Below the pieces are notes generated by a model that made no database searches, was not told the DNA's origin, and was given only the letters and a program-made list of their open reading frames with translations. Below are positions 27,701-29,646 of a DNA stretch of 42,462 bases, piece after piece (the stretch's first letter is position 1; the number at the start of each line of letters is the position of its first letter). A program made the position numbers and the translations under genes. This DNA comes from Bacteroidales bacterium. Its GTDB lineage: Bacteria > Bacteroidota > Bacteroidia > Bacteroidales > UBA932. The stretch lies in NCBI GenBank assembly GCA_017651465.1, contig JAGCCX010000048.1, forward strand, positions 1 through 42,462. The letters run 5' to 3'.

Positions 27701-27964
27701 TCCAGCCGGATTGGCTTCTGTTCATTGAAAGAATGACTCATCAAGCGAAGCGAATTCAGGGTATGCCGCGCACAAAAATTGGCTTTTTGTGTCAAAGCGA
27801 TAGATTCGTTGCTGCTTTTGACACAGATCTCCGTGTTTTGTGCGCTTTTCGCCGGTTCGACGCCGCTTTTGACACAATTCCCTTGTTTTTGTGCGCTTTG
27901 CGGTCGTAGGTGAAGGTCTGACTGCCCGAGGGGCTGCCCGAGGCTCCCGGCGTTACGGCAAGGG
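27701..27964. other. Non-coding accessory stretch between Rhs remnant and lpxH
   Basis: No credible gene is seen here. Open frames cross it on the minus strand in two registers, but neither resembles a known family and both are shaped by the repeat units at 27768-27900. A short tandem CTGCCCGAGG repeat lies at about 27921-27942, next to the lpxH end. The stretch probably marks the boundary of the inserted material. Confidence 0.5.
27768..27900. repeat. Three-unit repeat, two direct copies and one inverted
   Basis: The unit, read on the plus strand, is GCTTTTGACACA, 10-12 variable bases, then TTTTGTGCGC. Copies lie at 27865-27900 and 27814-27848 (51-bp period); an inverted copy lies at 27768-27798 (GCGCACAAAAA...TGTCAAAGC). 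The second and third copies face each other around a 15-nt centre, forming an inverted repeat of about 30-nt arms with mismatched cores. It could be the end of a small mobile element or a set of protein-binding sites. Confidence 0.6.
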
Positions 27965-28711
27965 TTAGTTGCTGGAAGGCTCGATGTCCAGGCTCCCGTC
28001 GGAGAGGTCGAAGCGGGCATGGGGGGTGCCGCCGGAGAGCCAGTCTTTGAGTACGATGAGCCGGGCTCCGGAGGGGAGAGGCAGGTCGACGGCGTCGTGG
28101 AAGTGTCCGAAAATAAAATAATCTACCTGTACTTGGGAGGACTGCTCGAGTGCAAATTGGTACAGTGGTTCCTGCTCGCCGCGGAAGTGGTACGCCGGCC
28201 TTTTGGAGCGCTTGCCGCCCGACCATTTGCGGGCAAGGGCAAAGGCGATGCGGGGGTGGAGGGTGCTGAAAAGGCCCTGCGTTATGCGGCTGTTGAACAC
28301 CTTTAGCATGAACTTGTAGCCCGGCCGGGCGCCTCCAAGGGCGTCTCCGTGCCCCAGGCAGAAGCTCTTGCCGCCTATCTCCACCAGCTGCGGCTGGGTG
28401 CAGCGCCTCATACCAATACTCTCGAAGAACGAATAGCACCACATATCGTGATTGCCGGGGAAGAAATATACCGTAACCCCCTCATCCATAAGCGCAATCA
28501 GGCGTGCCACCACTCGTGCTCCTTCGCGGGGGATAACGTCGTGGTATTCGTACCAGAAATCCCATATATCGCCCAGCAGATACAGCGCCAGGGCGTCGCC
28601 GGGAACTCCGGACAGGAAGTCCAGGAAACGCTGTTCCCGCTCGGCAGGGTCGGCATTGGCCAGGCCAAGATGTACGTCGGCGACGAAGTAAACCAGTGTG
28701 CGTTCCGCCAT
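27965..28711 (-). CDS. lpxH: UDP-2,3-diacylglucosamine diphosphatase (LpxH-like)
   Basis: A 248-residue calcineurin-like metallophosphoesterase. The start at 28711 is set by a TGATG overlap with the uppP stop rather than the longer open frame. Metal-binding motifs appear in order: ADVHLG (Asp12, His14), GDIWDFW (Asp48), GNHD (Asn87, His88), HGD (His121) and GHFH near residue 205. This enzyme removes UMP from UDP-diacyl-GlcN in lipid A synthesis at the inner membrane. It is the last gene of the ftsX-DUF3098-uppP-lpxH operon. It contains two of the few CATG sites of the window (28018, 28307). Confidence 0.87.
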   Translation of the reverse strand: MAERTLVYFVADVHLGLANADPAEREQRFLDFLSGVPGDALALYLLGDIWDFWYEYHDVIPREGARVVARLIALMDEGVTVYFFPGNHDMWCYSFFESIGMRRCTQPQLVEIGGKSFCLGHGDALGGARPGYKFMLKVFNSRITQGLFSTLHPRIAFALARKWSGGKRSKRPAYHFRGEQEPLYQFALEQSSQVQVDYFIFGHFHDAVDLPLPSGARLIVLKDWLSGGTPHARFDLSDGSLDIEPSSN

Positions 28712-29646
28712 CAAACCATAAATATAAGTACGGCCAGGCCCACCAGGGCGCAGTAGAGGCCGAACCATTTGAGCTGGGCCTTGCGCACGAGGGCTATCAT
28801 TACTTTGCAGGCAAAGAGGCCGGAAATGAATGCTGCCACGAAGCCTACTGCGAGCGGCAGGAAGCCGGTAGAAGATGCCGCCATATCGCCTCCCACTACA
28901 TCGAGGAATGCTTCTCCCAGGATGGGTACGAGTACCATAAGGAAGGAGAACTGGGCCATGTTGCTGCGTTTGACTCCGCAGATCAGACCTGTGCTGATTG
29001 TGGTTCCGGAACGGGACAGGCCCGGGATGACTGCAAATGCCTGGCCTATGCCTACAACCAGCGCCTGCCAGAAGCTGATGCCGTTACGGTACCGGTCAGT
29101 GCCGCTCTGTCCGGCGTCTCCCGAAACCTTGGGACAAAGGTCGCCGCCGGACTCCCGGCACTGACCTTCGGTGGCTTCGGTGGCTTCTGCTTCGGAGCCC
29201 TTTTCCCCGGTTTTATGGGCTCCGGAGCAGAAGCCACCGAAGCCCCGCTTGGTCTTCCAGTCGGAGAAAACCAGGAGCATGGCAGTCACGATGAGCGCCA
29301 GGCCAACTATGAGCATAGAATTAAACGCCGACTCTACCTTATCTTTAAAAAACATCCCCACTATGAATACGGGTATCATCGACAAGCATATCTTGGCAAT
29401 GTAGTCGGTCTCGTCGTTGTATTTGAACTTGAAAAGCCCGCAAAGCAGCTTCCAGATTTCCTTGCGGAACACCACTATGGTGGCGAGTACGGTGGCGGCG
29501 TGCACGGTGACCTCGAAAACCAGGTCCTCGGAGGGCTCCACGCCAAGCAAAGCCTTGCCTATCGCCAGGTGCCCGCTGCTGCTGACGGGCAGAAACTCGG
29601 TCAGTCCCTGGACCAGTCCGAGCAAAAGAGCCTGCAACCAGTCCAT
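28711..29646 (-). CDS. uppP: Undecaprenyl-diphosphatase with palindromic in-frame insert
   Basis: A 311-residue BacA/UppP membrane phosphatase that recycles the undecaprenyl carrier for peptidoglycan and glycan synthesis. Family motifs are intact: QGLTEFLPVSSSGH (residues 14-27) and PGLSRSGTTIS (208-218). Bacteroides homologues are about 265 residues. Here about 50 extra residues (134-188; Gly, Glu, Thr rich) lie between the helix ending LLVFSDW and the helix SFWQALVVGIGQ. The insert DNA is made of two large hairpins (29094-29166, 29173-29244). Both active-site motifs are outside the insert, so activity may be kept. It starts 2 nt after the DUF3098 stop. Confidence 0.93.
   Translation of the reverse strand: MDWLQALLLGLVQGLTEFLPVSSSGHLAIGKALLGVEPSEDLVFEVTVHAATVLATIVVFRKEIWKLLCGLFKFKYNDETDYIAKICLSMIPVFIVGMFFKDKVESAFNSMLIVGLALIVTAMLLVFSDWKTKRGFGGFCSGAHKTGEKGSEAEATEATEGQCRESGGDLCPKVSGDAGQSGTDRYRNGISFWQALVVGIGQAFAVIPGLSRSGTTISTGLICGVKRSNMAQFSFLMVLVPILGEAFLDVVGGDMAASSTGFLPLAVGFVAAFISGLFACKVMIALVRKAQLKWFGLYCALVGLAVLIFMV
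29094..29166. repeat. Palindrome 1 inside uppP
   Basis: Arms 29094-29116 and 29145-29166 pair as GGTCAGTGCCG with CGGCACTGACC, then an internal mismatch of 3-5 bases, then TCCGGCG with CGCCGGA, around a 28-nt loop. Lies wholly in the extra region of uppP and stays in frame. Confidence 0.8.
29173..29244. repeat. Palindrome 2 inside uppP
   Basis: A 28-bp stem, arms 29173-29200 and 29217-29244, with a single T/G wobble and a 16-nt loop. The left arm begins GGCTTCGGTGGCTTCTGC. It lies 6 bp from palindrome 1; together they account for nearly all of the extra DNA in uppP. The translated arms give GFGGFCSGAH-like and SEAEATEATE-like peptides. Confidence 0.85.

Follow-up and report, generated by a model that had tools for sequence, protein, structure and literature searches.

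Among the closest described counterparts of the element reported here are the Rickettsia palindromic elements (RPEs), small dispersed palindromes that sit in frame within several unrelated protein genes. RPEs are about 150 bp long and fall into ten families according to PMC10969869, and they are said to lose repeat identity over time (PMC6649704). The same paper mentions long perfect palindromes in protein genes of Nematomorpha mitochondria that are said to be actively maintained. REPs carry a tag (GTAG or CGTC) at one end, according to PMC3733652, and a miniature mobile repeat (MITE), described as one that contains a minisatellite, is reported from Porphyromonas gingivalis, which belongs to the same phylum as the bacterium studied here (PMC4596501). 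Template switching has been reported to cause homogenisation of the arms and inversion of the spacer of palindromes, also in coding DNA (PMC8604942 and PMC8794818). An equivalent of our element from Bacteroidota was not found in the open-access literature searched.

Here, we describe a family of palindromic elements that includes an insert in the uppP gene of a Bacteroidales bacterium (genome G000, 2.5 Mb in 85 contigs). The gene lies in a stretch of 42,462 nt, which we call the window. By analogy the element appears to work like an RPE, with a different host that keeps it outside that class. It is likewise a small dispersed palindrome found in frame within several unrelated protein genes. Unlike RPEs, its hairpin-bearing hits all lie in Bacteroidales/Bacteroidia metagenome-assembled genomes (MAGs) and not in Rickettsia, and the comparison is one of descriptions and not of sequences. 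Set against the published accounts of RPEs, the element is shorter (70-85 bp versus about 150 bp) and its arms stay matched while they diverge, whereas RPE repeats decay. What sets it apart is a palindromy that persists while the sequence itself is replaced. In the Nematomorpha palindromes the arms code for residues that are conserved in the host protein itself, whereas here an added element with a shared loop is found in linkers and intergenic DNA. With REP/REPIN sequences the element shares short palindromic repeats in many copies per genome; unlike them it has no tetranucleotide tag at its foot (91 copies), its loop is conserved and no link to a Y1 transposase gene was seen. The P. gingivalis MITE is likened to it by description alone, and the outer arms, where a MITE would have terminal inverted repeats in common with an autonomous transposon, differ between copies of the element. 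Quasipalindrome mutation by template switching shows the same arm homogenisation and spacer inversion; it is a process that acts on any inverted repeat, and its target here would be a dispersed family whose loop is conserved.

The features of the uppP locus are as follows.

28711..29646, minus strand: uppP (undecaprenyl-diphosphatase, BacA family), the host gene, 311 aa
Between residues ~133 and ~185 of UppP: the insert, which separates two conserved halves
29094..29166, plus strand: second, interrupted hairpin, probable older copy in opposite orientation
29123..29140, plus strand: degenerate loop motif of the older copy (GAAACCTTGGGACAAAGG), matching the loop consensus
29173..29200, minus strand: fresh element copy, arm 1, 28 nt
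29201..29216, minus strand: fresh element copy, conserved loop, 16 nt, reading ATAAAACCGGGGAAAA on the minus strand
29217..29244, minus strand: fresh element copy, arm 2, 28 nt with one mismatch

The two adjacent hairpins that the preliminary description had placed inside uppP were recovered at 29173-29244 and 29094-29166, and the insert keeps the reading frame, as had been stated: the open reading frame is uninterrupted over 311 aa and has a BacA/UppP match in Pfam. Relative to the solved UppP chain 5oon_A the insert lies between positions 146 and 161 of the chain, outside both aligned halves. Hairpin 1 has 28-nt arms that are 96% complementary around a 16-nt loop, and it is listed first among the inverted repeats of the window (at least 14 nt, arms at most 120 nt apart); the next two have 29-nt arms that are 76% complementary. 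Its sole imperfect pair had been taken for a wobble. It is T-G on the plus strand and becomes an A-C mismatch in the uppP mRNA. Hairpin 2 consists of 11 bp (29094-29104 with 29156-29166) and 8 bp (29109-29116 with 29145-29152), thus of 19 interrupted base pairs instead of the 18 counted earlier. The loop match at 29123-29140 is equalled by 3 of 5000 shuffles and by 7 of 6033 other positions of the window, and since it fits the family loop in inverted form, hairpin 2 is probably an older, decayed copy of the same element. The single double-palindrome element proposed at first is thus better read as probably two single-hairpin copies, one fresh and one decayed, in opposite orientations. The 181-nt stretch of mRNA with both hairpins folds at -112.6 kcal/mol, compared with -68.5 +/- 4.3 for shuffles (z = -10.2; 0 of 200 shuffles equally good). 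We infer that the insert is translated and that it is tolerated rather than useful. Elsewhere in the window, at 27768-27896 and downstream of a metallophosphoesterase domain, lie three related 29-nt units, one of them inverted relative to the other two, with common ends (TTTGACACA ... TTTGTGCGC) and variable middles.

UppP measures 261-274 aa in 20 of the 29 relatives read, which makes it 37-50 residues shorter than the G000 protein. The sister gene in G023 (277 aa) lacks both hairpins and is 34 residues shorter. This gene is near-identical to that of G000 over most of its 3' part and retains fragments that resemble remnants of the arms, so that uppP alone does not prove gain over loss. The G023 gene, the closest empty-looking one, may be a deletion derivative, and loss in G023 would be as possible as gain in G000. 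In the alignment of the two uppP genes (L079) the 3' part is nearly identical and the 5' part differs at many positions, a pattern that suggests recombination with a breakpoint within the gene. Among 30 UppP linkers, our own included, six carry hairpins of several unrelated kinds, and all six fall among the nine linkers of at least 96 nt. A scenario with no second copy anywhere and the same extension conserved without a palindrome in all relatives does not describe these data, yet three of the 30 linkers are long with no detected hairpin. Unrelated in-frame palindromic inserts were seen in the UppP linkers of G000, G047, G004, G033, G089 and G110. Judged from these alignments, the UppP linker appears to be an insertion hotspot across species of the genus.

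The element is dispersed. A search of the own genome with the 165-bp insert returned three other places (E <= 0.0023), all of them hairpins, one in frame in the primase gene. They have the loop and the inner stem in common and not the outer arms; the search that had been proposed therefore did find other copies, while what recurs is the loop with its inner stem and not the 165-bp sequence. The loop pattern AAAACN{1,4}GGGAAAAGGG gave 24 hits in six of 151 genomes of the same genus. Of these hits, 17 lie in hairpins with stems of at least 24 bp, one is an artefactual fold-back, four are cut by contig edges and two are without a hairpin (G028, G077). A reversed control pattern matched once in each of nine of the 151 genomes, and single loop hits are therefore background, which the five to seven hits each in G000, G023, G047 and G104 are not; in a reversed-pattern control on the own genome there was one match versus three real ones. 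With a stricter pattern, a contig collection of 84,980 species yielded 31 stretches. Twenty-six are in Bacteroidales/Bacteroidia MAGs, some of them titled water-deer rumen or water-buffalo omasum, and 22 of these have stems of at least 24 bp; of the remaining four, two are copies at a contig edge, one is the fold-back and one is broken but has an intact neighbour at a distance of 1.3 kb. The five stretches elsewhere have a 3-bp stem only, which the pattern itself imposes. All carriers are draft assemblies, and those with record titles are MAGs.

A covariance model (R1) matches 16 of 250 genomes of the same genus at E <= 0.01. With 150 candidates scored per genome its copy counts are lower bounds: at least 8, 20, 16, 45 and 22 matches in G000, G023, G047, G104 and G194, at no fewer than 7, 19, 15, 45 and 20 distinct places, respectively, some of which are matched on both strands. 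In the remaining genomes hit by R1, matches are few and their loops mixed, being recognisable in G103, G178, G186, G095 and G427 (the last of another genus) and loose elsewhere. At family level, two of 199 genomes match R1 at E <= 1e-6, the own genome included. Viral contigs gave no exact match to the loop, and carriage by phages was rejected on that ground. G103 (L106) and G023 (L181) share, at 98% identity, 2.1 kb of DNA that contains one element, though G103 is without any other match; judged from the sequence, either recent transfer or contamination of the bin may account for it. Contigs repeatedly stop at or inside copies (G023: end of C9, start of C22, end of C31; G047: C88, C104, C166, C197, C199; G000: C6, C29), a pattern that could arise if the population sampled contained the loop in both orientations. 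A 128-bp perfect fold-back around the loop that runs up to the end of contig C42 of G047 (L018/L055/L101) was dropped as an assembly artefact.

Copies of the element measure about 70-85 bp and consist of a conserved loop of 16-17 nt (about ATAAAACATGGGAAAA), a GC-rich inner stem of about 12 bp and an outer stem of free sequence, with a total stem of about 28 bp. A cleaned set of 93 copies was made non-redundant by the inner 12 bp of the two arms, which counts close orthologs once. Its median stem is 28 bp, with 79 copies within 24-32 bp; 47 copies have a loop of 16 nt and 24 have one of 17 nt. The 16-nt loops are 87% identical to their consensus and the outer arms are randomised. Conservation, taken over 110 copies, exceeds 1 bit next to the loop, drops to 0.00-0.03 bit at positions 15-18 and stands at 0.05-0.10 bit at positions 20-24; at positions 30-31, T is favoured in the longest stems. 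Alignment at the foot (n=91) revealed no motif inside or outside the stem, none of the 10 positions of the stem and 8 of the flank on each side exceeding 0.18 bit.

Despite their free sequence the outer arms match within each copy. In 28 loop-motif copies, Watson-Crick pairs occupy 676 of 728 arm positions. At the outer 14 positions 353 of 392 (90%) pair within the copy, versus 26% when the arms are swapped between copies. This set left out the contig-edge copies L020, L022, L026, L030, L048 and L050, the fold-back, repeat sightings of one copy, the two same-genus hits without a hairpin (L016, L017), the broken copy L070 (plus strand) and the five hits outside Bacteroidales/Bacteroidia; with L016, L017 and L070 restored, 703 of 806 positions pair overall and 364 of 434 in the outer part. 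When 20 copies with a 16-nt loop are aligned, 23 of 26 pairs have changed on both sides, with 205 cells changed on both sides versus five on one, and slid controls pair at 34-49%. In the larger set, which includes copies from the covariance model and hence favours pairing, 2496 of 2603 pairs are Watson-Crick and 36 copies are perfect. The mismatches comprise 35 G-U, 35 A-C and 37 others; in the loop-motif set there are 13 G-U versus 12 A-C.

Inside open reading frames, by the rule of 60 codons of open frame on either side, lie 14 of the 93 copies; 73 are outside and six too near to a contig edge. Host genes with Pfam support are uppP, atpG, dnaG, a tRNA pseudouridine synthase (truA), an amidohydrolase and a THUMP-like protein. 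Of the other four open reading frames with copies, one was searched and is without a Pfam match. The gene names miaB, truA, hutI, nadD, gltS and fba are tentative and were assigned by eye. The copies in uppP and dnaG point one way relative to their gene and those in atpG the other. From these positions it would seem that copies enter intergenic DNA and length-tolerant protein linkers and leave the frame open.

Comparison of orthologous sites proved informative about the fate of the arms. Flanking sequence identifies the same site as occupied, with different and still palindromic arms, in four species for atpG and in two for truA; the dnaG site is occupied in three species and in one more at a contig edge. 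Eleven further orthologous sites were usable, and at one of them (L170/L003) the two species have the same arms. In seven ortholog pairs with similar arms, supported by their flanks (L182/L246 on one side only), there are 21 stem positions with a change on either arm and 17 with a change on one arm only. The four pairs that differ more hold all 21 paired changes and nine single ones, and it is in these four that both arms change together, as template switching predicts. The three pairs with few differences hold eight single-arm changes, five of them in L249/L070, and no paired ones. That paired changes appear in the more diverged pairs and single ones in the less diverged fits mutation followed by re-matching, although flank divergence is not closely followed. 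Orientation of the loop relative to the flanks differs between species at eight of 14 usable sites. After discounting, among 34 rows, two without a partner hairpin, one spurious inversion (L194/L070) and four ambiguous rows at the nadD site, 13 pairs are inverted and 14 are in the same orientation; pairs within a site are not independent. Clearly homologous arms retained around an inverted loop, the second outcome expected of template switching, are found at truA (G023/G000), L195/L231 and L222/L040. At several orthologous sites the loop is kept while the arms turn over. A subfamily in G104 has copies on different contigs with arms that are still related, as would follow if the element carries its arms along when it moves and they drift afterwards. 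The flanks of L200 and L204, also in G104, contain many short repeated units like mini-hairpins (e.g. TTCCTACAGGGAA), some of which resemble the arms of the local element.

Six relatives were screened for the flanking DNA of about ten G104 sites, and of ten sites compared with the 30 loci obtained two were readable; the empty-site alignments of L190, L209 and L218 were too diverged and five other sites gave no alignment. Just upstream of the miaB-like gene the element is absent in six of six aligned relatives, and at the L220 site it is absent in four; neither arm is present at the empty sites. At these two sites, then, the palindrome is gained or lost as a whole, and since both arms are missing, they are not copied target DNA. 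At the intergenic L220 spot, G000 has a different palindromic insert (L266, C34, ~2658-2884). These two presence/absence cases, together with the additional copies in the own genome and its relatives, in frame within genes and intergenic, strengthen the likeness to RPEs that had been drawn from the uppP locus. A target-site duplication was not clear by eye at either readable site. The Y1 transposase domain PF01797 is found in 15 of 15 genomes tested, element carriers or not, and an association with Y1/RAYT was provisionally set aside for that reason; at 30 Y1 loci the loose loop motif matched five times, never element-like by eye. Neither a clear target-site duplication (two readable empty sites) nor a flanking motif (91 feet) nor a mobilising enzyme (Y1 domains in 15 genomes) was found. 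Dispersal would have occurred by transposition, and we suspect that the conserved loop is the recognition site for mobilisation.

We consider it probable that the copies are non-autonomous mobile palindromes whose arms mutate and are re-matched by template switching during replication, with the loop sometimes inverted. A palindrome of about 70-85 bp would insert into intergenic DNA or a protein linker, in uppP as two copies back to back. Its arms would then mutate and be matched again by template switching between them while the DNA is replicated. Both arms would thereby drift together and the loop would at times flip, and this single step would explain both observations. We infer template switching as the cause of the matched arms and of the inversions; it leaves the conserved loop and inner stem unexplained, for which a constraint or a recurrent derivation from one master copy has to be invoked. 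The single-arm changes seen in three of the seven pairs are also what plain decay would produce, and part of the loop inversions could be due to faulty assembly or to separate insertions. Such paired changes might instead be ordinary compensatory mutations in a hairpin selected as a DNA structure, a cruciform or a protein-bound form with a recognised loop, the selector being a mobilising enzyme or a nucleoid or replication protein. The conserved loop, the narrow stem length (79 of 93 within 24-32 bp) and the persistence of the loop while arms turn over at several orthologous sites speak for this reading, which we nevertheless regard as unlikely: loop orientation differs between species at eight of the 14 sites, copies in the core genes atpG and dnaG are also palindromic, and the inner arms of L205 look, by eye, more diverged than the neighbouring DNA, where two-step compensation predicts less divergence.

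Selection for pairing in a transcript, as in a terminator, a double-stranded RNA or a regulatory hairpin, would account for the very stable fold and for the terminator-like A/T tracts at the feet of some intergenic copies. Selection on RNA would, however, make G-U exceed A-C on the transcribed strand, and the equal counts (13 versus 12 and 35 versus 35) argue strongly against RNA pairing. Moreover, in-gene copies lie in both orientations relative to the gene and no Rfam family reaches its gathering score in the window (0 matches), all of which makes an RNA element very improbable. Rfam families were rejected, with sub-threshold microRNA matches taken as generic to long hairpins. If instead only the core of the loop inserted and the arms were an inverted duplication of the target flank, conservation should fall off away from the loop, and it does, from more than 1 bit to 0.00-0.03 bit at positions 15-18. 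This idea is contradicted at the miaB-like and L220 sites, where the empty relatives have neither arm, and by orthologous copies that differ in their arms, which leaves it, if anything, a shade less probable still. Chance palindromes or assembly artefacts are suggested by the several copies at contig ends, the 128-bp fold-back that is evidently artefactual and the single short-loop hits at the level of the control pattern (one hit in each of nine of the 151 genomes). Across the family they are already contradicted by orthologous copies with the same loop and the same arms in the separately assembled G000 and G023, by z = -10 for the uppP fold and by the mere 3-bp stems of the five hits outside the group, and we give them a negligible chance.

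A second family with a different loop was found in the same genus. Its loop GCTTCGCNCCCTANCCGGGTAAATG, common to the UppP linkers of G033 and G089 and conserved over about 35 nt, is present in seven of 121 genomes of the genus, with 24 places in G089. In 31 copies, the best stems, a choice that favours pairing, hold 420 Watson-Crick pairs out of 439, with nine G-U, seven A-C and three other mismatches. The arms vary between copies and the stems range from 4 to 23 bp, six being shorter than 10 bp. As far as sequences can tell, this family appears to be a good though weaker parallel to the first in architecture.

Template switching as the preferred explanation is directly measurable here, with many natural replicates of palindromes that co-evolve in place, and the comparison of G-U with A-C offers a built-in DNA-versus-RNA control, which speaks against RNA selection. 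Covariation alone is insufficient as proof of a functional RNA. That core genes of an organism other than Rickettsia (ATP synthase gamma, primase, UppP) contain palindromic elements in frame bears on how linkers gain sequence, and in annotation such linker segments should not be read as conserved domains. More tentatively, and with somewhat more doubt than confidence, we propose a new class of mobile DNA in which only the loop and the innermost stem are inherited, while the outer stem is free in sequence and is kept palindromic by errors of host replication; the loop would then be the single-stranded recognition site of a mobilising enzyme. If this is true, the occurrence in one genus of at least two such families, whose loops (16 nt and about 35 nt) are unrelated, means that this may be a general lifestyle of short palindromes.
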